A stretch of DNA of 53,262 bases from positions 1 to 53,262 of the forward strand of contig JACPSE010000170.1 of assembly GCA_016193465.1 (NCBI GenBank), given 5' to 3'. The position numbers and the translations under genes are program-made. Position 1 is the stretch's first letter. The number at the start of each line of letters is the position of its first letter. The notes under the pieces are model-generated. The model did no database searches and was not told the origin of the DNA. It saw only the letters and a list, made by a program, of their open reading frames with translations. Positions 19,909 to 31,083 of the stretch are shown in pieces. The DNA comes from Deltaproteobacteria bacterium (GTDB taxonomy: Bacteria; Desulfobacterota; Binatia; UBA9968).

Positions 19909-20138
19909 GGCCGTGCTCGCGGAATCAGCGGCCGGTGTTCTCATGCGTAGGTGGGCGTCTGCTTCAGGGCTTTTAGGTCCGCGCGATGCGTGGTGTTAGG
20001 GGTTGATTTATCCGGTGGGGATGGTAAACTCCGTCACTGCGCTTCGTCGCAGGCAGAGAAACAGGATTCAATAGGATTTTAAGGGCCTCTCGGGAGTATT
20101 TCCTCGGGGGGTTTTTATTTTGATTGAGGAGTAAGGTT
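19909..20138. other. Intergenic region before greA
   Basis: These 230 bases contain no recognisable gene. ggccg (19909-19913) and cggcc (19929-19933) could pair right after the transporter stop codon, but no T-run follows. The predicted greA promoter is at 20003-20030. The rest would be greA leader, ending in a T-rich stretch after six G residues near 20105-20120. Confidence 0.5.
20003..20030 (+). promoter_or_regulatory. Predicted promoter of greA
   Basis: TTGATT (20003-20008) and TAAACT (20025-20030) are separated by 16 bases. The transcript would start near 20037 and carry a leader of about 100 bases. Confidence 0.4.
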
Positions 20139-20627
20139 ATGGTAACTCAGGATTCCCGTGTTCCGATGACCTATCAGGGATATCAGCGGCTGTTGGAGGA
20201 GCTTAAGCGTCTCAAGGGCGTAGAGCGGCCAAAGCTCGTCCAAGAGATTGAAGAGGCCCGCGGCCACGGAGATCTTTCCGAGAATGCTGAGTTCCACGCG
20301 GCCAAGGAGAGGCAATCCCTTCTCGATGTCCAGATAAGGGAGATCGAGGATAAGCTGGCCCGTGCTCAGGTAATCGAAGTCTCCAAGCTGTCAGGAGACA
20401 AAGTGGTTTTTGGCGCGACGGTCACTCTGGCCGATGGCAATACCGGCGACAAGATGGTTTACCAGATTGTCGGGGACCACGAGGCGGAGCCCAAGAATGG
20501 AAAAATCTCTATTAGCTCCCCTATCGCCCGTGCCCTCATCGGCAGGTCAGAGGGCGACGAGGTCGAGGTCCGCACCCCTACCGGCATCCGCACCTTGGGG
20601 ATCCTGCGCTTGGACTTTATAGATTGA
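20139..20627 (+). CDS. greA: Transcription elongation factor GreA
   Basis: GreA rescues stalled RNA polymerase by stimulating cleavage of the backtracked transcript. The 162-residue length is normal. The N-terminal coiled coil carries the acidic tip in EEARGHGDLSENAEFHAAKE, where the Asp and Glu coordinate the catalytic magnesium. The C-terminal FKBP-like domain is recognised by NGKISISSPIARALIGRSEG and GDEVEV. ATG 20139 follows gaggagtaagg; an in-frame TTG at 20124 overlaps that ribosome-binding site and is rejected. It stands upstream of the Bat-like operon. Confidence 0.97.
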   Translation: MVTQDSRVPMTYQGYQRLLEELKRLKGVERPKLVQEIEEARGHGDLSENAEFHAAKERQSLLDVQIREIEDKLARAQVIEVSKLSGDKVVFGATVTLADGNTGDKMVYQIVGDHEAEPKNGKISISSPIARALIGRSEGDEVEVRTPTGIRTLGILRLDFID

Positions 20628-20666
20628 ATCTCCCTCTTTTGCCGGACAGGCCTTTTTCTGAGGATC

Positions 20667-22604
20667 ATGTCTTCTATCAGAAAGGCTGCTGTTAGTTCTT
20701 GCCTGCACCTCTGTTTTGCTCTCCTTATAACTCTACCCCTTTATGCCGCAGATCTTTTTTTAGAGCCCGAGGTGGGCTTTCGCGGCCTTTTCCAGCTAGG
20801 CTATCCCTTCCCCTTGACGGTGGAGCTCACCAACCGGGGTCGACCCGTGGAGGGGACTCTGCGAGTCAAGGTCTTCAAAGGGGGAGGCGCGAAAGGAACC
20901 GAATCTTACGCGCTCCATTATCGCAGAGAGCTTTCCCTCCCCGCGCAATCGAGAAGAAGCGTGCAGTTTACAGTCGATCCCGATTCTATCAGTCGGCCGG
21001 TCATCGTGAATTTTTCCGGCCCGGGAGTCCAGGTCGCCAAGGAGATCGATCTGCGACGCCATTTTTCCCCTGCTCCCCTGCTCCTTTTGCTCACGGAAAA
21101 TAACGTTTCTCCTCCTCTTTCTTTGCCCTCCGGCGCACCAGGTCCTCTTGTTTCCATCTCCTTAAGCCATTTACCGTCCGATGTCAGGGCATATCACGGT
21201 GTTTCCACCATTATATTCTACGAGCAATCTCTGCGGGATCTTTCGAGAGCCCAGGGGACGGCCCTGGAGGCTTGGCTTTCTTTGGGCGGCCGCATGCTTG
21301 TTCTCGGGAGTATCTACTACGCCCTGTATCAAGAACCCTCTATAAACCGTTTTCTGCCGGTGCGCGTCACAGGGATCAAAAAACTCTCTGCGGTTCCTGG
21401 TTTGGACAGAATTTACGGGAAAGGCGCCTCACTTGTGAAAAATCTCCTGGCCCAGGATTCTAAATCTGTGGGAGGCAACGTTCTCATAGAGGAGAGGGGT
21501 CTTCCTATCTTGGTGGAGCGGAGCAGGGGAAGAGGAAAGATCCTGTATCTATCTTTGGATGTGGGACGGCCACCCTTATCTCGGTGGGAGGGGCTCCCGC
21601 TTCTTTTCAGAGATCTCTTGGGACCTCCCGGAGAAAGAAGATGGACTCTACAGGCGAGCTGGGACGACTCTATTTTTTCCCAACTGCTCTCGAATCCCGC
21701 CGTGATTTCCGCCTATGTGCCCGTCCGCGCTTTTTTCTTCTTGCTCCTCATCTATGTTAGCGGGCTCGGACTCTTAGTGTGGCTGTGGCAGCATCCGCTT
21801 GTGCCGCGACGGGTCGTAGCCTTTTGTTTTCCACTCTTGGTTTTCTTCTCCTCCCTCGGAGGCTACCTCCATTTTAATCGAGGGGACCATATTCCGGATG
21901 GGGTGCTCCTCTCCTCGACCCTGTGGGAGAGTCTTCAAGACGGATACGTTGAGGCTCAATCCAATGTGGCGCTTTTCTCTACGCAGAGACGTCGTTACAG
22001 CCTTCAGGTTGAAAGGGGGTGGAGCGATCTAGAGCCGATTTCTTCCCATCGAGGGACGCCGAAAGATAACGGCCTGGTGATCGAGGAAGAGGGAAGATCT
22101 ACCCGATTCAGCTTTCCTTTAAGAGAGTGGAGTTACAGGCTTTTTAGGGTTCGATCTTTGGGTTATTTCCCGTTTCGCGCCGGGATCGAGACTAAAGACG
22201 GCAGGATTTTGTTAAAACTTGCCAATCTTACCTCGACGGATCTTACGGACTGTTGGCTAGTGGTTTCCGGGCAGCGTTTCTCTCTGGGCAATATTCCGCG
22301 GGGGTCCAGTCAGATTCGGGAATTTTCTCTCCCTTCGGAGGGGACCTCCTCGCCAGGTGGTTGGCCAAAGAAGATGGATCTCAGAGAAATTCCATTTGAC
22401 GATAAAATCAAGGAGATGCTCCTTCGCTATTCCTTTTTTCCTGAGGATCAAGGGATGGCCCGGTGGGGCGGCGGTGGCGTCCTTTTTTTTGGTTGGGTCA
22501 AGGGTGGCCCCAGACAGGTTTGGGTTGATGACGCGCAGATTCAGGCCTATAACTATACCCTCTTCCGTGTCATCCTGCCCCTGGAAGAGGAAGGGGAACT
22601 ATGA
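20667..22604 (+). CDS. Membrane protein with exported GATase-like domain, unnamed
   Basis: This 645-residue protein of unknown function has a signal sequence at residues 1-28, then a beta-rich domain (30-130) of the kind found in exported adhesion-like modules. A region follows (about 135-300) that resembles glutamine-amidotransferase-like folds seen in Bat-associated proteins, with ALEAWLSLGGRMLVLG. Two membrane spans lie near 351-372 and 383-402, and a further exported C-terminal part follows. It starts the operon of MoxR, DUF58 and VWA genes, and its stop overlaps the next start by four bases. It is probably an envelope component of that system; no enzyme activity is claimed. Confidence 0.72.
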   Translation: MSSIRKAAVSSCLHLCFALLITLPLYAADLFLEPEVGFRGLFQLGYPFPLTVELTNRGRPVEGTLRVKVFKGGGAKGTESYALHYRRELSLPAQSRRSVQFTVDPDSISRPVIVNFSGPGVQVAKEIDLRRHFSPAPLLLLLTENNVSPPLSLPSGAPGPLVSISLSHLPSDVRAYHGVSTIIFYEQSLRDLSRAQGTALEAWLSLGGRMLVLGSIYYALYQEPSINRFLPVRVTGIKKLSAVPGLDRIYGKGASLVKNLLAQDSKSVGGNVLIEERGLPILVERSRGRGKILYLSLDVGRPPLSRWEGLPLLFRDLLGPPGERRWTLQASWDDSIFSQLLSNPAVISAYVPVRAFFFLLLIYVSGLGLLVWLWQHPLVPRRVVAFCFPLLVFFSSLGGYLHFNRGDHIPDGVLLSSTLWESLQDGYVEAQSNVALFSTQRRRYSLQVERGWSDLEPISSHRGTPKDNGLVIEEEGRSTRFSFPLREWSYRLFRVRSLGYFPFRAGIETKDGRILLKLANLTSTDLTDCWLVVSGQRFSLGNIPRGSSQIREFSLPSEGTSSPGGWPKKMDLREIPFDDKIKEMLLRYSFFPEDQGMARWGGGGVLFFGWVKGGPRQVWVDDAQIQAYNYTLFRVILPLEEEGEL

Positions 22605-23347
22605 GCAGGAACCCGGTCTTTCGCGAGGGGATTCAGATCTATCTCATAGAGGGGCATGGCTTTCCTGCCTATTGTTATACCCTGTTGCTCCTCGCCCCGC
22701 TTGAGTTCTTAACCCTTTTCCTTCCCTCCTTGGATCCACAAACTTGGATAGGACCCGCCAATCTTTTCAAGCTCACGTCCGTGGTCACGCTGGTATTGGT
22801 GGTCTATTTTTGTCTGAGGATCACCAATCAGGAGTTTGCGCCTTGGAGATTTCTTCCTTCAAAGCGTTGGCTCCAACAGGAGGGTGTCACCATTCCCAGG
22901 ATGGTCTTGGCTCAGTTTGCCCTCCTCGGCCTTCATGGTCTCCTGTTTATCCTCATCGCATCTCCTCTTCTCATTTGGGCCGGAGCCATTGCCCGGGCCT
23001 CCGCAGCATCCATGCTGTTTACTCTATTCTTCATTCTCTTTTACGCGGTGACCTGTGGTGCTTGGGGTCTGGCTGCAGTCACCCTATGGGAGCGCCGGAT
23101 GGAAAATCGGGAGGTCTTTGTTCGATCCTTCTTCTTCTCCGTAGTTTTTCTCTCAGCCCTCCTTTATCTTCCGCTGAACCCCATTGCTTTCCTCTTATCC
23201 CGGCTGGGGGAAACGGAGATGGCCCCGCTGCTTCTTTGGAGATGGCAATGGTCAGCTCCATTAGTCCATTTCCTTTTTGATTTTTTCCTTTTGGGATCGG
23301 GCCTGGCCCTCTATAGGTGGGCGCTTGGAAGGGAGGTCACCGTTTGA
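22601..23347 (+). CDS. Polytopic membrane protein, unnamed
   Basis: These 248 residues are almost entirely hydrophobic, with about six predicted membrane spans (for example LFKLTSVVTLVLVVYFCLRI and AASMLFTLFFILFYAVTCGA). The overall look is that of an ABC-2-type permease, but no ATPase gene is next to it and no motif proves it. ATG 22601 overlaps the previous stop (ATGA), and the stop overlaps the next start (TTGA). This implies tight translational coupling with the genes around it. Confidence 0.72.
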   Translation: MSRNPVFREGIQIYLIEGHGFPAYCYTLLLLAPLEFLTLFLPSLDPQTWIGPANLFKLTSVVTLVLVVYFCLRITNQEFAPWRFLPSKRWLQQEGVTIPRMVLAQFALLGLHGLLFILIASPLLIWAGAIARASAASMLFTLFFILFYAVTCGAWGLAAVTLWERRMENREVFVRSFFFSVVFLSALLYLPLNPIAFLLSRLGETEMAPLLLWRWQWSAPLVHFLFDFFLLGSGLALYRWALGREVTV

Positions 23348-24780
23348 TCGACGAGGAGCCACTGCTGCGAGAGAAATTTTCCGCTCTTCTCAGATGGGAG
23401 AGAACGAAAAGGAGGGGGAGAATCCTTGGCGAGGTTTTTTTCTATGCCGTCCTGGCCTCCCTGGCAGCCCTTCCTGCGGGGGAGCTCGTGTCTCCTTGGA
23501 TGAGTTCCCTGGCCTGGCCGCCGCTGCTATTTTTGATACTCACGCCGGTTTTTTTCCTGCGGCGTCCATGGGGTAGCCAGGAGTGGCTGCGTTCTCTTTT
23601 TGTCCTGGATAAAACCCTCCGTTTGGAGGCAAGGGGCATCACGGCATGGGAGATTCTAAACCGCAGAGAAAGGAGACCGGGCGAGCTGTTGGTCCTTAAA
23701 GAGACCTGGGAAAGACTCAGGGGCACGGATCTTAAGACCCTCTTTCAGAGGCAGCGCTCCTGGCGCGAAATTTGCGCTCTGCCGCTGCTTCTTATTTGGC
23801 TCCTGTTTGCCTGGCTTGGCGCCGGTCTCGACCGTGGGGGGTTCGTTAACGGGTCCGGTCGCTATCCCTTGGCCCGGCAACTCAAAGAGTTCTCCCGCGA
23901 CCTCCAGGAGAGAGCAAAAGCTCAAGGGCTGAGCGAAAGTCTCAAGGTAGCCCTCGCTTTAGAGGAGGCCTCGGAAAGGAGCCTCAGGGGCGAGCTGAGC
24001 GAAAAGAAGCTGAGCGAAGATCTTGCAGGGATGGCTGGCAAGGTCGGCGATATCTCCCCGGGGCCGGAGGAAACCGATCTCCAATTCTCGGGCACTACCA
24101 GAGAGGGGCTGCTGGACTTGAAAGCAGAGCTTGAGGCTTTTAAATCTACCTTCTCTCTGCGTGACTCCGATAGGCGGGAGGAAAGCCTGGCAACGGAAAT
24201 CCTGAGGAAGATGGGCACTCTTCCCCGCCTCAGCGAGGAGATTGGCAAGCGTCTGCCGTCGCTTCAGGAGATGGGAGAGCTAGAGCTCAACAGCCTTCTT
24301 GAGAAGGTCGAGAAGAGTGTTACGGCAGAGCTAGATCGCCGAATGCTCCGGGAAATAGAGGAGTCTCTCAACCTGCTGCTCCAGGGAGGCGAGGGTCGAG
24401 AGCAGGGAGAGGCCTTGCGCTTGGCCGGGCGGGCATCTCAGGGAGAGTTGTCCGAAGCTGAAAAGATTAGAGGAAAGGGGAATTCTCCCGGGAGTCAGCC
24501 AGGGATGAAGGACCAGGCACTCCAACCGGCCCCTCCCGTAACAGCAGGCGCCGCGTCTCAACTTAAGGGTTTTTTGAGGGAAGGAAAGAGCGGCAGCATC
24601 CCATTGAGAGGAGAGTTTTCGGGCAAAGGAAGCATCGTGTCGCGCCAGGAGTTGCTGACCTCTTACCGGCGACAAATGGAGGAAGAGCTCGCCTCGGAGC
24701 AGATTCCGGAGGGGCTTAAGGAGATGGTCAAGAGATATTTTCTCTCTTTGGGCTTCTCCGAAAGCAAAAAAGGGGAGTGA
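23344..24780 (+). CDS. Membrane protein with long coiled-coil domain, unnamed
   Basis: From TTG 23344 this encodes 478 residues. It has two membrane spans near the N-terminus, a third around LPLLLIWLLFAWLGAGL, and then a long charged helical region (roughly residues 175-480) rich in Glu, Leu, Arg and Ser. It resembles the membrane/coiled-coil proteins found beside MoxR-Bat genes, such as DUF4175-like proteins, but the match is weak. TTG 23344 overlaps the previous stop by four bases and has a good GGAGGT ahead of it, so it is preferred to GTG 23317. Confidence 0.68.
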   Translation: MIDEEPLLREKFSALLRWERTKRRGRILGEVFFYAVLASLAALPAGELVSPWMSSLAWPPLLFLILTPVFFLRRPWGSQEWLRSLFVLDKTLRLEARGITAWEILNRRERRPGELLVLKETWERLRGTDLKTLFQRQRSWREICALPLLLIWLLFAWLGAGLDRGGFVNGSGRYPLARQLKEFSRDLQERAKAQGLSESLKVALALEEASERSLRGELSEKKLSEDLAGMAGKVGDISPGPEETDLQFSGTTREGLLDLKAELEAFKSTFSLRDSDRREESLATEILRKMGTLPRLSEEIGKRLPSLQEMGELELNSLLEKVEKSVTAELDRRMLREIEESLNLLLQGGEGREQGEALRLAGRASQGELSEAEKIRGKGNSPGSQPGMKDQALQPAPPVTAGAASQLKGFLREGKSGSIPLRGEFSGKGSIVSRQELLTSYRRQMEEELASEQIPEGLKEMVKRYFLSLGFSESKKGE

Positions 24781-24782
24781 AG

Positions 24783-25781
24783 ATGGATGCCGTAGCAGAG
24801 ATCCGAGAGAGAATGGAGCTTTCCCGCCGCGCCTTTGAAGAGGTAAAGGCGGAGATGAGCCGCCTGGTCGTGGGCCATCATGAGCTGATAGAGGAGATCT
24901 TTATTGCCCTCGTGTGCGGGGGGCACTGTCTTCTGGAGGGGGTGCCCGGCTTGGGCAAGACCCTGATGGTGCGCAGCCTGGGCGAGATATTAGACCTCTC
25001 CTTCTCCCGCATTCAATTCACTCCGGATCTTATGCCTGCTGACATCACAGGGACCAATGTCCTCACGGATGACCCATCGGGAAAAAAGCTCTTTGAGTTT
25101 CAGCCTGGTCCCATCTTTGCCCATATCGTGCTCGCCGATGAGATCAACCGGGCTACCCCCAAGACCCAGTCGGCTCTTTTGGAGGCCATGCAGGAGCAGA
25201 GCGTGACTGTCGCGGGCAGGATGCATCGCCTGCAGAGCCCTTTTATAGTTCTGGCGACACAGAATCCGATCGAGATGGAAGGGACCTACCCGTTGCCCGA
25301 GGCCCAGATCGACCGATTCTTTTTTAAACTCTTGGTCCAATATCCGAGCCGCGAAGAGCTTGGACGAATCGCTGATCTCACCACGGCCTCGCCGCCGCCC
25401 CCGCTCCACAGGGTTTTGGATGGAGATGACGTGCTGAGGATCCGGGAGTGGGTCAGGGAAGTCCCCATAGCTGAGGCAGTCAAGGACTATGCGGTGCGGC
25501 TGGTGCTTGCCACTCATCCCCACGGGGACGGCGCTGGTTCCAGCGCGCAGAGATTTGTCCTCTACGGCTCAAGCCCCAGGGGGCTGCAGAGCTTGATTCT
25601 GGCCGCCAAGGCCCGTTCTTTCCTCTCGGGACGGCCCAATGTCTCCTTTGATGACATCCGGGCAGTGACGCTTCCCAGTCTCAGCCATCGCATCATTCTC
25701 AACCTTGAGGGTGAGGCAGAGGGGATCACCGCGGAGGGGATCTTGAAGGAAATGATGGAGCGGGTGCCTGAGGTTCTGTAG
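24783..25781 (+). CDS. MoxR-family AAA+ ATPase
   Basis: This 332-residue AAA+ chaperone-like ATPase has Walker A GVPGLGKT (53-60), Walker B VLADEINRATPKTQSALLEA, sensor 1 in LATQNPIEMEGTYPLPEAQ and the arginine-finger segment DRFFFKL. MoxR proteins act with von Willebrand factor A proteins to mature or remodel envelope or metal-dependent enzymes. Here the DUF58 and VWA partners follow directly. ATG 24783 is spaced 5 bases from ggggag; the GTG at 24777 lies on that site and is rejected. Confidence 0.95.
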   Translation: MDAVAEIRERMELSRRAFEEVKAEMSRLVVGHHELIEEIFIALVCGGHCLLEGVPGLGKTLMVRSLGEILDLSFSRIQFTPDLMPADITGTNVLTDDPSGKKLFEFQPGPIFAHIVLADEINRATPKTQSALLEAMQEQSVTVAGRMHRLQSPFIVLATQNPIEMEGTYPLPEAQIDRFFFKLLVQYPSREELGRIADLTTASPPPPLHRVLDGDDVLRIREWVREVPIAEAVKDYAVRLVLATHPHGDGAGSSAQRFVLYGSSPRGLQSLILAAKARSFLSGRPNVSFDDIRAVTLPSLSHRIILNLEGEAEGITAEGILKEMMERVPEVL

Positions 25782-25783
25782 AG

Positions 25784-26677
25784 ATGCCGGCACAGGGCCG
25801 ACCCCGTTTTTTGCAGCCGGAGTTTCTTAAGAAGCTCGAGCGCCTCCGTTTGATTGCCAAGCGGCTCTCGTGGTCTGGCGCGAAAGGGGAGCACCCATCC
25901 CAGAGAAAGGGTTTTAGTCTCGAATTCTCCGACTATAGGAAATACCAGAGGGGCGACGATCTGCGTTATGTCGATTGGAACGTTTACCGCCGTTTGGAGC
26001 GGCTCTTCTTGAAGCTCTTTACAGCGGAGGAAGAGATGAACGTCTATCTCCTCCTCGATACTAGCGGCTCCATGGCCGAAGGAGACCCTCCAAAGATCGA
26101 GTATGCGAAGAGCGTTGCCGCAGCCCTGGGATACATCGGGCTTAAAAACCTCGATAAGGTGGGAGGGGCGAGCTTCTCATCCGATCTCCTCTTGCCCTTG
26201 GAGCTGGGAAGGGGCAAAAAACAAATCCTTACGCTTTTCAATTTTTTAGGCAACCTCTCCTGCGAGGGGGAGACGGACTTGCGGGCCTCTCTCCAATCCT
26301 TCTCCTCCCTCTTTCCGCGAACAGGACTGGTGGTGCTTGTGAGCGACCTCTTCGATCCCCGAGGGGTCCGTGCCGGGCTGGACGATCTGCTGAAAAAAAA
26401 ATACCAGCCTTTGGTTATCCATATCCTGGATGAGAAGGAGCTTTTTCCTGATTCGTGGGGAGACGCCTCGCTCTTCGACGTGGAGAGCAAGCGGGAGAAA
26501 AGGCTTTTTTTGGATGGCGATTTAGTTCGCCGCTTCCGGGAGGAGCTTCAGAACTATCTTGATGGGGTGGAATCGTTCTGTCACAGTCGCCAGATCGATT
26601 ATCTTCTGACCACTACGGCGACCCCCTTCGAGGACTTCGTCCTTCTCACCCTGCGTCAAGTTAAGAGCGTGAGATAA
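25784..26677 (+). CDS. DUF58 protein with VWA-like fold
   Basis: This 297-residue cytosolic protein carries the DUF58 core motif (SDYRKYQRGDDLRYVDWNVY) followed by a von Willebrand A-like domain with an intact metal-ion site, DTSGSM. DUF58 proteins regularly form an operon with MoxR ATPases and are thought to be their adaptors. It starts two bases after the moxR stop. The function is known only at family level. Confidence 0.92.
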   Translation: MPAQGRPRFLQPEFLKKLERLRLIAKRLSWSGAKGEHPSQRKGFSLEFSDYRKYQRGDDLRYVDWNVYRRLERLFLKLFTAEEEMNVYLLLDTSGSMAEGDPPKIEYAKSVAAALGYIGLKNLDKVGGASFSSDLLLPLELGRGKKQILTLFNFLGNLSCEGETDLRASLQSFSSLFPRTGLVVLVSDLFDPRGVRAGLDDLLKKKYQPLVIHILDEKELFPDSWGDASLFDVESKREKRLFLDGDLVRRFREELQNYLDGVESFCHSRQIDYLLTTTATPFEDFVLLTLRQVKSVR

Positions 26678-26741: not shown

Positions 26742-26754
26742 TGAGGTTGTGTCA

Positions 26755-29700
26755 ATGCAGTGGGGCTCTCCTCTATCCTTTCTTCTCCTCTTAGCTGCTG
26801 TCCCTTTCATTCTCTTTCTTCACAGCCTCAAGCCGAAGGGGACCAAAATCAGGACCACGGCGCTCTTTCTCTGGGAGCGGGTCTTGAGGGAGCGGCCTGT
26901 AGGGAAGAGAATCGGGTGGTTGTTAAGGAAGAACCTCCTTCTGATTCTGCAGATCCTCATTGCCGCGATCCTGATCATGGCCCTGGCCGATCCCTCGCTC
27001 CGGCGCTTCGGAGTTGCTACCGGTGATGCCGTCGTCGTGATGGATATGAGCGCGAGCATGAAGGCCGCGGGCCGCGCGGGGACTCGCTTTGATGAAGCCC
27101 GCAAGGAGCTTCTCTCTCTCATCGATGCCATGCCCTCTGATCAGAAAATGATGGTGATCGGCGCCGGCCCCATTCCGAGGATTTTATCCCCTTTTACGGC
27201 GGACGAGAAAAGGCTCAAGGATCTTGCGAGGAGTCTTCAGCCTACCGACGCCCCCGGACAGGTCAAAGAGGCGATCCTCCTTGCCCATTCGTTTTTAAAA
27301 CAGGAAAGCCGCGATCGAGTGGTTGCGCTCAGCGATGGCGCTTTTGACGGGGCCGAAGAGCTCCCCTGGCATTCATCTCATCTCCGTTTGGTGCGAGCGC
27401 AGGGAAAAAGCGAGAACGTCGGTATCACGGGTTTTGAGTTCCGCCGCGTTCCAAACAGCGCAAGGGATTATGAGATCATGGTCCGCGCCAAAAATTTCAC
27501 TCTCCGTCCGCTCCGCGCCCCGCTTACCTTGACGATAGGAGAAAAGAAATGGATAGAGGAGAGGATCGAGCTAGCCCCCCAGGAAAGCCGCGTCTTGATC
27601 TATCCCTATCGAGGGGCTTTGGGGAAAAGGGCCACGGTCTCTCTGGGAATTGAAGACGATTTTCCAACCGATAATCGGGCTTTTCTAACGCTCGCCGAAT
27701 CCCTTCCTATCCGTCTCCTCTATGTAGGCAAAGGCAATTCCTACTTGGAGCCTCTGTTTCGTTCCTTCTCTGATGTTCAGGTTACCCGTGTAGATCGAGT
27801 AGCCACTGACTTTTCTTCGTCTCGGCACAGTGATTTCGATGTCATTCTCCTCGATGGAGTCCCTTCACCGCCCCTGGCGCGGGGTAACTTCATCCTCATC
27901 AATACGATTGGAGAAGGGCTGCCGGTGCATGCGGCGGGCAAGATGCGAGATCCCCGGCCCGTTCCTTCCGTTGCCCATCATCCTCTAACCGAGGGGGTTC
28001 GTCTCGACGATCTCCGTATTAGAGAGGCCTCGCATCTTATTCCCACGGGGGGAGGGGTCGTCCTGGCCCGTTCCCAGGAGGGACCCCTGATCTTCGCATA
28101 CGAGAAGGGGAGGCTTAGAGTTTTGCTTTTCGGGTTTGATCTGCTGGCATCGGACTTGCCTTTGCGGGTCGCTTTTCCTGTGCTTCTCCATAATGCCTTT
28201 GACTGGTTCCAGCCGAAAAGAGTTGAATTCCCAGCGACGAAGATTCAGGCAGGGAAGCCCTATCTCCTCCATCTCCATGAAACAGAGGATCAGGTCGAGG
28301 TGCTGAGCCCTTCAGGCAGGAGAGAGATTCTCAAGGCGGCCTCAAATCCGCTACCCTTTACCGACACCTCGGAAGCCGGATTTTACACCTTCAAGACTGG
28401 CAGCAGGGAGGGAGAGTTTGCGGTCAATTTGCTGAGCGAAAGCGAGTCCCAAATCAGCCCGCGCGTTCATGCGCAAGAGGCCGCCGGTGAAAAAGGGGAA
28501 ACGGGGGAGAGGGCGGAAGCGCGACTTTCACTCTGGCCTTTCTTTCTCGTCGCAGTTTTTGCGCTGTTGTTGCTCGAAGGATTTTTAGCTCTGCGGAGTG
28601 GAGGATTTTTTTATCCTCTGCTCTTTCGTCTGCTGTCTCTCTTGGCGCTTGGTTTCGCCCTCTTCAACCCGAGAATTTTCAGGGACACGGACGCCTTGGA
28701 TGTGGTCTTAGGCGTCGATTTTTCCCGCAGCGTAGGACAGGAAGGGAAAGAAAAGGCCCTGGATATCCTTGAGGAGGCTCGTCGGAATAACCGGCCTGAC
28801 ACGAGGGTGGGACTGCTCTTTTTCGGCCGCCAGCCAGCGTGGGAGTTCTTCCCGCGTAGTCAGCCGGACCTTGCGGATCTTTCCCCGCAAGTGGCCAGGG
28901 AAGAGACCGATATCGAGACCGCGCTTCAGGCCGCCCTGGCCCAGGTAGGCGAAGGACGTCAGGGAAAAGTCCTCCTAATTTCCGACGGCAATGAAAACCG
29001 CGGCGAGGCATCGCGGGCGATTCCCCTGCTTCGTTCCCACGGTGTTCCGGTTTGGGTTCTTCCGATCAGCCTCTCTCGCGGCCGGAACGAAGTCTATCTC
29101 AGCGATCTGCTCTTGCCGCATCAGGTGGACAGCGCCGAGGGCTTTGAGGTGAAGGGAGCCATTGAAAGCCTCCGCGATGCTCCTGTCCGGGTAAGGCTGC
29201 TGCGCAACGGGACTATCCAAAGGGAAGAGGCATTAACCTTGAAGAGAGGCACCAACTGGGTGGGCTTCAAGCAGAGCTTAAAAGATCAAGGGAGTCATAC
29301 CTTTGAGCTTCTGATCGAGTCTCCAGAGGATACCCTGCCGGAAAACAATCGCCTTCAAGGAGTGGTCGAGGTCCGGGGCCCGCCAAGAGTGCTTTATCTT
29401 TATTCCCGGGGCGATAGTCAGCGCTTTATGGCTCGCGTCATCAGAGTTCAGGGATACTCGGTGGCTGAGTCTCTGGCACAGGAGGCTTCTCTTTCCCTGC
29501 CCGAAATTTCAACTTTTGATCTCTTAGTTCTCGATAATGTTCCCGCCTATCAACTCTCTCAGGCGAAGATGGAGACCATAGAGCGATACGTCAGGGACCT
29601 TGGGGGCGGCCTGGTTGTCATTGGCGGCCCGCAGAGCTACGGGGCAGGGGGATACTACAGCACCCCGCTGGAACGCATCCTTCCGGTTGAGATGAGGCCG

Positions 29701-31083
29701 CCTTCCCGTCTCGACCTTCCCCATGTGGCGCTCCTTTTTGTCCTGGATAAGTCAGGAAGCATGGGGGCGGGACCACCGGGAGCAACCAAGCTGGACTTAG
29801 CCAAAGGAGCGGCCCTGGCCGCGGCGGATCTGCTGAATCCCTCCGACCAAGTTGGCATCCTTGCCTTTGACGCGGGCTGGGACTGGGTTCTTCCCTTTCG
29901 CCAGGTGGGAAAGGGGGAGTGGATCTCCGAAGGGCTGGCTTCCGTTCAATCCGACGGCGGCACGGACCTCTATAAGGCCATGGTCGAAGCCCATCGCGTC
30001 TTCTCTGCGAAGGCGGCAGCGATCAAACATCTCTTGGTTCTTTCGGATGGGCTGACGGATAAGGCAGATTTTGAGTCGCTGGCAAAGAAGATGGTGCGTG
30101 AAGGGATCACGGTATCGACAGTCGCTCTCGGTCAGGATGCCGATGTTGCCCTGATGTACGAGATTGCCAAGACCGGCAAAGGAAGGACTTATGTGACTGT
30201 CGATCCAAAGACCATTCCGCAAATATTTACCACGGAGACCCTTCTGATCTCCCGGGATCTCCTGGTCGAGAAGCCGGTTAATCCTCAAGTCGTAAGCTCT
30301 GCGGGGCCGCTTAAAGGCTTCGCGCGAAAAAAGTTCCCCTTGCTCCGGGGCTATGTCCTCACTCATCCGAAGCCTCGCGCCGACCTCTTGATGAAGGCAG
30401 AGGAAGATCCCCTCTTGGTCTCCTGGCGCTACGGCCTGGGGACGGTTTCAGCCTTTACTTCGGACCTGAGCGGGCGCTGGGGAAAGGAATGGGCGTCGTG
30501 GGAGGATTTTCCGCAGTGGGCCGGTCAGCTTACGCGAAGCTCTATGAGAAAAATGCCGGATCATAGGATACGCACCGAGCTTAAACAGGAAGGAGAGGAG
30601 GTCAAGGCTATTGTCGATTTCGTGTCGAAGGAAGGAGGCTTTGTCAATCACCTCAAACTTAGGGGCAATCTGGCGGGCCCTCACCAGACCACTCACGTAA
30701 GTTCCTTTCAGCAGATCGCACCGGGACGCTATGAAACCAGCTTTTCCGCTTCACAAAGAGGAGTTTATTTTCTTACGATCCATGATGAGGGGGAAAAGGG
30801 CGAGACCCCCGCAGCCGTCACCGTGCCCTTTATTGCTCCCTATCCTAAAGAGTACCGTGAGTTAAAGCCCAATACGGCTTTGCTCAGCCGCCTGGCCGAA
30901 GAGACCGGCGGCGAGACCTTGGACCCTGACAAAATGGAGGAAGGATTAAAGCGTCTCTTCACCCCTGACCCCAAGAAGGGCCGATCGGTTCAAGAAACCT
31001 GGTGGCCTCTATCCGGCCTAGGCCTTTTTCTGTTCCTGGCGGATTTGGCGCTTCGAAGATGGCCGGGGATACAGAGGCCTTGA
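26755..31083 (+). CDS. Giant triple-VWA membrane protein (BatA-like fusion)
   Basis: This is a 1442-residue protein. It begins like BatA-type proteins: a membrane span near residues 5-25, another near 62-78, then a VWA domain with metal site DMSAS (about 97-101). A long beta-rich part follows, with a membrane segment near 592-615. A second module starts with another span (621-640) and a second VWA domain with site DFSRS (about 655-659). It continues with a GATase-like section (about 875-985, RYVRDLGGGLVVIGGPQSYG) and a third VWA domain with site DKSGS. A last span lies near the C-terminus. ATG 26755 is eight bases from GAGG. It looks like a fusion of two neighbouring Bat-operon genes, and all three metal sites are intact. 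Confidence 0.88.
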   Translation: MQWGSPLSFLLLLAAVPFILFLHSLKPKGTKIRTTALFLWERVLRERPVGKRIGWLLRKNLLLILQILIAAILIMALADPSLRRFGVATGDAVVVMDMSASMKAAGRAGTRFDEARKELLSLIDAMPSDQKMMVIGAGPIPRILSPFTADEKRLKDLARSLQPTDAPGQVKEAILLAHSFLKQESRDRVVALSDGAFDGAEELPWHSSHLRLVRAQGKSENVGITGFEFRRVPNSARDYEIMVRAKNFTLRPLRAPLTLTIGEKKWIEERIELAPQESRVLIYPYRGALGKRATVSLGIEDDFPTDNRAFLTLAESLPIRLLYVGKGNSYLEPLFRSFSDVQVTRVDRVATDFSSSRHSDFDVILLDGVPSPPLARGNFILINTIGEGLPVHAAGKMRDPRPVPSVAHHPLTEGVRLDDLRIREASHLIPTGGGVVLARSQEGPLIFAYEKGRLRVLLFGFDLLASDLPLRVAFPVLLHNAFDWFQPKRVEFPATKIQAGKPYLLHLHETEDQVEVLSPSGRREILKAASNPLPFTDTSEAGFYTFKTGSREGEFAVNLLSESESQISPRVHAQEAAGEKGETGERAEARLSLWPFFLVAVFALLLLEGFLALRSGGFFYPLLFRLLSLLALGFALFNPRIFRDTDALDVVLGVDFSRSVGQEGKEKALDILEEARRNNRPDTRVGLLFFGRQPAWEFFPRSQPDLADLSPQVAREETDIETALQAALAQVGEGRQGKVLLISDGNENRGEASRAIPLLRSHGVPVWVLPISLSRGRNEVYLSDLLLPHQVDSAEGFEVKGAIESLRDAPVRVRLLRNGTIQREEALTLKRGTNWVGFKQSLKDQGSHTFELLIESPEDTLPENNRLQGVVEVRGPPRVLYLYSRGDSQRFMARVIRVQGYSVAESLAQEASLSLPEISTFDLLVLDNVPAYQLSQAKMETIERYVRDLGGGLVVIGGPQSYGAGGYYSTPLERILPVEMRPPSRLDLPHVALLFVLDKSGSMGAGPPGATKLDLAKGAALAAADLLNPSDQVGILAFDAGWDWVLPFRQVGKGEWISEGLASVQSDGGTDLYKAMVEAHRVFSAKAAAIKHLLVLSDGLTDKADFESLAKKMVREGITVSTVALGQDADVALMYEIAKTGKGRTYVTVDPKTIPQIFTTETLLISRDLLVEKPVNPQVVSSAGPLKGFARKKFPLLRGYVLTHPKPRADLLMKAEEDPLLVSWRYGLGTVSAFTSDLSGRWGKEWASWEDFPQWAGQLTRSSMRKMPDHRIRTELKQEGEEVKAIVDFVSKEGGFVNHLKLRGNLAGPHQTTHVSSFQQIAPGRYETSFSASQRGVYFLTIHDEGEKGETPAAVTVPFIAPYPKEYRELKPNTALLSRLAEETGGETLDPDKMEEGLKRLFTPDPKKGRSVQETWWPLSGLGLFLFLADLALRRWPGIQRP

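Follow-up and report, generated by a model that had tools for sequence, protein, structure and literature searches.

The locus described here raises the question of why a single bacterial gene encodes three von Willebrand factor A (VWA) domains in one run with genes for a MoxR ATPase and a DUF58 protein, and to which kind of system such a gene belongs. The stretch analyzed, hereafter called the window, comprises 53,262 nucleotides (positions 1 to 53,262 of the forward strand of contig JACPSE010000170.1, assembly GCA_016193465.1) of a Deltaproteobacteria bacterium from the order UBA9968 of the class Binatia (Desulfobacterota). The gene is a variant of a two-gene system, encoding proteins termed VWA-N and VWA-C here, that is found in many phyla; both parts are fused into one open reading frame (ORF) at positions 26749-31083. 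All features reported for the window lie on the plus strand. The frame is open for 1444 codons from GTG 26749, from which residues are numbered. The ATG of the third codon (26755) is the likely start (about 1442 residues), since Met occupies this position in six of eight aligned N-terminal parts, the window included.

The architecture of the encoded protein is well supported. Its first half begins with two transmembrane (TM) segments identified by hydropathy and in the AlphaFold model, TM1 (26770-26820, residues 8-24; helix 8-26 in the model) and TM2 (26935-26985, residues 63-79), which enclose a loop predicted to be cytosolic (26827-26934, residues 27-62). These are followed by VWA1 (27031-27339, residues 95-197, Pfam VWA_2), a beta domain seen in the model (27418-27648, about residues 224-300), an uninterrupted GATase1-like fold (27709-28215, residues 321-489) recognized by structure matches to PDB entries 3soz and 2gk3, and a second beta domain, again from the model (28234-28428, about residues 496-560). 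The joint consists of TM3 (28531-28599, residues 595-617) and TM4 (28612-28665, residues 622-639), where hydrophobic segments at residues 599-615 and 623-639 coincide with model helices 595-617 and 622-639; the membrane segments proposed for residues 592-640 are thus borne out. The second half comprises VWA2 (28696-29028, about residues 650-760, Pfam VWA_2), a beta domain (29092-29319, about residues 782-857, model), the first piece of a second GATase1-like fold (29383-29649, about residues 879-967, profile and structure matches), VWA3 (29731-30228, residues 995-1160, Pfam VWA_2 and structure matches), the second piece of that fold (30262-30549, about residues 1172-1267, Pfam and structure), another beta domain (30565-30837, about residues 1273-1363, model) and TM5 (31003-31053, residues 1419-1435, hydropathy and model), which precedes a basic tail.

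Pfam recognizes the three VWA_2 stretches (protein-level E value 1.8e-40), the BatA N-terminal domain (PF07584) with 32.2 bits against a cut-off of 25.9, and GATase1_like at residues 1170-1255, where the match covers the 247-position profile from position 145 onwards only; Pfam and NCBIfam offer generic domain names only for this family. The metal ion-dependent adhesion sites (MIDAS), located by sequence and alignment, are DMSAS (27043-27057, residues 99-103, with T166/D196), DFSRS (28717-28731, residues 657-661, with T720/D746) and DKSGS (29746-29760, residues 1000-1004, with T1072/D1100), the T and D residues being found at aligned positions. DxSxS, T and D are therefore complete in all three VWAs of this protein, the T of VWA1 being assigned by alignment only, and the earlier note was right in describing a single protein with three VWA domains and intact metal sites. 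In an alignment of 20 rows obtained by protein search without motif filter (A1), the D, S, S, T and D of VWA3 and the D, S, S and D of VWA2 are invariant in 20/20 rows, and the T of VWA2 is nearly so. Two larger alignments comprise 48 of 49 N-terminal stretches (A3) and 65 of 72 listed C-terminal stretches (A4), each plus the window, short or weak stretches and near-copies being omitted. The VWA3 motif occurs in 65 of the 66 rows of A4, partly by construction, since the same motif served as the search pattern by which loci L072-L151 were fetched.

The two halves are diverged copies of one module with the order TM-TM-VWA-beta-GATase-like-beta-TM, and in the second copy VWA3 sits within the GATase-like fold; both duplication and nesting are well supported. 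Profile alignment of VWA-N with VWA-C gave an E value of 1.7e-27 over 336 columns and placed an insertion between residues 968 and 1172. After the VWA3 columns had been cut out, the alignment extended from TM to TM over 561 columns (probability 99.9, E 5.4e-36) and the score rose from 240 to 305. Outside the VWAs the halves still matched at E 7e-20, and the GATase parts alone at 8.1e-9, as compared with 0.0018 to 0.87 for nine reversed or permuted profile controls. Structural models of the N and C halves (predicted local distance difference test 85.2 and 89.4, respectively) support the same arrangement. The C model matched 3soz over its residues 292-680 (Z 29.5, root-mean-square deviation 1.5, 202 aligned residues), and VWA matches, which occupy about residues 401-585 of this model with VWA3 at about 404-584, lie inside the range matched by 3soz. 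Furthermore, Foldseek aligned the C half with 2gk3, a chain of 248 residues, over 433 columns (TMt 0.73), and the profile matched two separate stretches in each of 3soz and 2gk3. The N model matched 3soz at residues 321-489 (Z 16.7, root-mean-square deviation 2.5, 167 aligned residues) and also 2gk3. A GATase-like section had been noticed earlier in the second half only; it is present there, but the description was incomplete, since such a domain occurs in each half.

The fold of both halves is that of the GATase1_like proteins STM1381/STM3548 (3soz, 2gk3) and of 3rht, and it is shared with class I glutamine amidotransferases. In contrast to these, the fused protein lacks the catalytic cysteine, and one of its copies is split by a VWA domain. 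Cysteine is missing from all 1444 residues of the window protein, numbers zero to two in the 27 fused ORFs of the order, and reaches 25% in no column of A3 or A4. Since the fused protein contains no cysteine, its GATase-like folds are not Cys-dependent enzymes, and an active Cys-glutaminase was rejected.

In its unfused form the system is a pair of genes for VWA-N and VWA-C, usually located behind a DUF58 gene and often accompanied by MoxR, in many phyla. A survey of whether relatives encode one gene or two showed that they usually possess two neighbouring genes. The genome of the window itself harbours such a locus on contig C108 (L038), with DUF58, a VWA-N of 593 residues and a VWA-C of 847 residues. 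Within the class, 130 of 148 genomes matched at E 1e-15 or better, and a scan of named organisms yielded at least 115 relatives from 591 stretches, of which 80 loci were kept. Relatives among the matches listed belong to Planctomycetota, Chloroflexota, Bacillota, Poribacteria, Myxococcota, Verrucomicrobiota, Calditrichota and others; pair systems occur in Planctomycetota, Chloroflexota, Bacillota, Myxococcota, Calditrichota, Binatia and others. Neighbours were counted in unfused loci whose sequence upstream of VWA-C spans 5000 bases or more (termed deep; 18 from the class, 52 named). VWA-N lies near VWA-C in 18/18 class and 39/52 named loci, and DUF58 likewise in 18/18 and 39/52. MoxR is found near VWA-C in 10/18 and 35/52, and all three together in 10/18 and 34/52. 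Pair systems share domains, domain order and neighbours with the fused gene and are homologous to it over most of their length, but consist of two adjacent genes with, as a rule, six TM segments in sum, as compared with one gene and five segments. No paper describing them was found in searches of the open-licence PMC literature. In genome G012, a glucose/sorbosone dehydrogenase gene (L039:4003-5118, GSDH, E 2.2e-84) is located between MoxR and DUF58 of an unfused operon.

The difference in TM segments concerns the joint. At a hydropathy threshold of 1.5, a terminal TM segment was found in 58/67 unfused VWA-N proteins and two leading segments in 84/89 unfused VWA-C proteins, five repeated loci being left out (64/72 and 89/94 at threshold 1.4, near-copies included). 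A plain join of both proteins would therefore leave three TM segments at the joint and turn the second half inside out. The fused ORFs of the order possess two joint segments in 27/27 cases at threshold 1.5 and in 25/27 at 1.4, and two strong joint segments were likewise found in three fused genes outside the order (L095, L139 and G111). With two helices instead of three, all VWAs come to lie on one side of the membrane. The first joint helix resembles the terminus of unfused VWA-N (consensus LWPYLLLAALLLLALEWW, window LWPFFLVAVFALLLLEGF), and TM4 corresponds to the second TM segment of VWA-C. This resemblance suggests that the helix lost in the order, in L095 and in L139 was the first helix of VWA-C, although the models for the VWA-N end and the VWA-C start differ in the flanks they hold, so that their scores are not strictly comparable. 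The joint of G111 matches the VWA-C start only.

Regarding the side of the membrane, the loop between TM1 and TM2 is net positive in 49/49 rows of aligned N parts (median +6), which places this loop inside and the VWAs outside. The near absence of cysteine fits this orientation. Moreover, the VWA of Borrelia BB0173, a protein with a Bat-type domain, faces the periplasm by experiment (PMC5700661). On these three grounds, a periplasmic location of all three VWAs is strongly indicated. DUF58 contains no TM segment, whereas MoxR shows one stretch above threshold (residues 41-59), located beside the nucleotide-binding loop; neither protein carries an export segment. A large envelope machine had been postulated, and a membrane protein with most of its chain outside the membrane is indeed predicted. 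Direct service of its VWAs by MoxR, as also supposed in the earlier note, is unlikely for the reason that the VWAs are predicted outside the membrane and MoxR and DUF58 have no export segment; a cytosolic MoxR can probably not touch these VWAs.

Lengthy frames of this kind could also arise as artefacts, by an assembly error or a missed stop codon between two genes. Within the order, 34 of 35 genomes matched the fused protein at E 1e-150 or better, and each of the 34 has a match that spans the joint (residues 592-640) in one frame. A missing stop codon near position 28600, which had been named as the finding that would split the gene, is thereby excluded. In total, 27 fused ORFs of at least 1400 codons were read, the window included, at least one of which (L014) runs off its contig; G005, the 35th genome, has a piece of 59 residues located at the end of a contig, and its matches elsewhere are of the unfused type. 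VWA-N and VWA-C share a reading frame in 10/60 unfused pairs, and loss of a stop codon could hence join such genes. However, plain stop loss also predicts one joint segment more than the fused ORFs carry at hydropathy 1.5. Together with read-through in 34/34 genomes, this leaves the artefact with practically no probability, and it was rejected. Programmed read-through of same-frame pairs was likewise rejected, the share of 10/60 being below the random third. Open-frame values of 1463-1505 in some class genomes were considered as further fusions; those fetched proved to be two ORFs, mostly with one stop between them, as did G010, whereas G111 is a true fusion. In the class loci L153, L154, L155, L156 and L158, VWA-N and VWA-C lie in the same frame with a single stop between the open frames.

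Repeated fusion of the pair is well supported. Fused genes outside the order were found in G111 (same class), L095 (an alphaproteobacterial metagenome-assembled genome) and L139 (Pelagibacterium lacus). G111 is the fusion among the class matches listed, with at most three candidates scored per genome, so that the class may hold more. In a C-half tree of 99 rows (15 fused, 84 split), the fused/split label switches four times, and starred branches force every switch; 12 loci were left out by name (repeats or incomplete) and others by a length and score filter. In a 40-row tree the label also changes four times, three changes being forced, and a single all-fused clade was rejected by the approximately unbiased (AU) test (p-AU 1.3e-51; 40 chosen rows, LG+G4 without mixture model). 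The fused genes of the order form one clade on a starred branch with support 100. Because fused rows lie apart among split rows, we read the trees as three or four separate fusions, and the gene pair appears to have been joined several separate times. Such repetition favours a complex of VWA-N and VWA-C and suggests that both normally work as a pair outside the membrane. The earlier note had proposed that fusion fixes the stoichiometry; a 1:1 ratio of the halves does follow from the single chain, and 1:1 pairing of the separate proteins is strongly indicated by the recurrence of fusion. Two side observations concern individual rows. A record named Betaproteobacteria (L075) places its fused gene within the clade of the order, and its label may be wrong. 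In L139 (6862-11142), inspection by eye found DxSxS absent in VWA1 and VWA2 and DRSGS kept in VWA3; the start of its VWA2 lies outside A4, and its VWA3 motif was the search pattern.

The fused gene is the last of a compact run comprising greA (20124-20627; Pfam, gene order), X645 (20667-22604), X248 (22601-23347), X487 (23317-24780), MoxR (24777-25781; 334 residues, AAA_3 E 1.8e-62) and DUF58 (25784-26677; 297 residues with a VWA, DUF58 E 4.2e-31). GreA is an upstream neighbour kept in the order, and 14 re-read stretches around relatives showed the same gene order as far as each reaches; MoxR-DUF58-fused gene was found in 13 of these 14 order stretches, L068 ending at a contig edge. X645, a membrane protein, carries a third GATase-like domain (hhalign E 5.9e-90 to homologues in the clusters described next, E 3e-9 to the C-half GATase). 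An eight-gene order, X645L-ABC ATPase-ABC permease-X487L-MoxR-DUF58-VWA-N-VWA-C, is complete in six loci (L084, L086, L092, L096, L097, L113) of Bacillota, Chloroflexota and Calditrichota. The models used for searching derive from L084, L092 and L113, in which Pfam finds ABC_tran; ABC2_membrane_2 is above the cut-off in L084 and L092 and just below in L113. X487 is a membrane protein homologous to the gene before MoxR in these clusters (hhalign E 3.2e-41), and X248 is a polytopic membrane protein in the position of the ABC-2 permease. Its match to permeases is weak (probability 62.9, E 7.1e-5; controls E 0.09 or worse), so that its identity as an ABC-2 permease was left undecided. In 15 order stretches (14 genomes) holding both X645 and X248, no ABC ATPase lies between them, a positional result, the genomes elsewhere not being searched. 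In the window this region corresponds to 20628-23344, and MoxR is the sole recognized ATPase of the run. A second MoxR (340 residues) is encoded on contig C13 of the same genome (L165:1692-6732) between two short VWA proteins of 382 and 331 residues, which are not of the pair type. Internal duplication, nested VWA3, the unfused paralogous pair in the genome and these exporter-like neighbours were all missing from the earlier description.

These neighbours bear on what the system might do. The run could represent an ABC-2-derived machine for export or envelope remodelling, in which X645 (GATase-like, flavodoxin-type), X248 and X487 would make up a channel or scaffold, with the three-VWA protein as its periplasmic receptor gated by MoxR. 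The six complete eight-gene clusters argue for it, as do 10 of 73 loci (L076-L148, many incomplete) in which an ATPase and a permease lie ahead of the MoxR genes. A comparable archaeal set, arCOG01314, is predicted to be a secretion system and unites an extracellular flavodoxin-type domain, a vWA protein and a MoxR-type ATPase in one neighbourhood (PMC5898192); its genes are separate and archaeal, and the flavodoxin-type domains are likened by type rather than by kinship. However, the remaining loci among the 73 lack such an ABC pair, and so does the position between X645 and X248 in the order, where X248 itself resembles permeases only weakly. Export is hence a possible, though not a probable, account. 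A further elaboration, in which the AAA+ ring and the DUF58 VWA would drive across the membrane a three-site metal-dependent periplasmic clamp that arose by gene duplication and domain insertion, supposes that MoxR replaced the lost ATPase of an ABC-2-derived complex as motor, because MoxR would be the only ATPase left in the complex of the order; we consider it improbable.

Two further readings start from the MoxR-DUF58 neighbourhood. The earlier note took the gene for a fusion of a Bat-type aerotolerance system, whose VWA proteins are normally separate. The BatA N-terminal domain, BatB (3ibs) as the best solved match of the VWA-N profile, and the adjacent MoxR and DUF58 are shared with Bat operons, and the VWA of BB0173, a protein with a Bat-type domain, faces the side predicted here (PMC5700661). 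Nevertheless, the second half repeats the module of the first, has a VWA nested in it and belongs to an unfused family of its own. BatD (PF13584), a part of the Bat set, gave no match in the genome, which is rated 100% complete by the tool used, and control matches were obtained in Bacteroides and Methanosarcina. Bat VWA proteins carry one VWA each and are not known to have GATase-like or beta domains. A BatA+BatB fusion was therefore rejected; fusion of separately encoded parts as such stands, but the parts are the VWA-N/VWA-C pair, and the Bat-type reading is very unlikely. Alternatively, the system might act as a maturation chaperone for a membrane or periplasmic metalloenzyme, comparable to NorQD for nitric oxide reductase. 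In NorQD and RavA-ViaA, a MoxR ATPase and a VWA partner are likewise encoded in one operon. For NorQD, PMC9976466 and PMC13036017 describe how a VWA finger within the MoxR ring links MoxR-driven ATP hydrolysis to remodelling, the MIDAS being thought to grip the target. However, the VWA of NorQD meets the MoxR ring directly, whereas here only DUF58 is predicted on MoxR's side and the VWAs of the fused protein are predicted outside the membrane, away from MoxR. Pfam recognized no such enzyme among the six genes from GreA to DUF58, genes beyond the operon not being surveyed. We judge a chaperone of this type to be unlikely.

The explanation we favour, with about an even chance of being correct as a whole, is that a widespread complex of two proteins, with a periplasmic head and MoxR-DUF58 coupling, is encoded here as a single chain. 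VWA-N and VWA-C would be copies of one inner-membrane module, each with two TM segments, followed by an outer VWA, a beta-sandwich, a Cys-free GATase-like domain, another beta-sandwich and a last TM segment, an extra VWA having been inserted into the GATase-like fold of VWA-C. The fused halves would pair 1:1 as a pseudo-dimer, giving a periplasmic head that has three metal sites and is anchored by five TM helices. Acidic residues of envelope partners, X645 perhaps among them, would be the most likely ligands of the outer MIDAS sites. In the cytosol, by analogy with studied MoxR/VWA systems, the MoxR ring may dock on the DUF58 VWA. Since this is the only VWA predicted on MoxR's side, MoxR-DUF58 is proposed to remodel the complex from inside through the basic loop (residues 27-62) and the TM bundle. 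Where unfused loci have no MoxR, it might be supplied from elsewhere or not be needed.

Several observations weigh against this explanation. No experiment on any member of the family was found in the open-licence PMC papers searched, and the N and C halves were modelled separately, so that the models predict no contact between them. MoxR was not found near 8 of the 18 deep unfused class pairs (L038, L040, L041, L044, L048, L050, L051, L052, all with DUF58-VWA-N-VWA-C), including that of the same genome, for which the whole 17-kb contig C108 was read; MoxR therefore need not be encoded beside the pair. VWA-C without a recognized VWA-N occurs in 13 of the 52 deep named loci, so that pairing is not universal; both are real minorities. 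TM counts rest on hydropathy, and at threshold 1.4 two of the 27 order ORFs show three joint segments, while L095, L139 and G111 carry weaker segments (1.56-1.91) elsewhere in the chain. Label changes alone cannot distinguish gain from loss of fusion, and L139 is a long branch. The VWA1 motif is not strictly kept (D in 49, S in 46, S in 43 and the last D in 45 of 49 rows), and its T column holds T or S in 26/49 rows. Finally, studied MoxR partners bind by a VWA finger in the ring pore (PMC9976466, PMC13036017), and VWAs across the membrane do not directly fit this.

MoxR/VWA operons are widespread and largely uncharacterized. This locus is of interest on two counts: recurrent fusion is evidence for a complex shared by many phyla, and the predicted topology keeps MoxR apart from the VWAs. 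For a family with generic names only, a VWA nested in a cysteine-free GATase-like fold provides a definite architecture. With the membrane predicted to lie between MoxR and these VWAs, it becomes a sharper question whether MoxR acts on them at all and, if so, by what route. Where species encode the two proteins separately, repeated fusion predicts that VWA-N and VWA-C should associate 1:1 at the outer side of the inner membrane.

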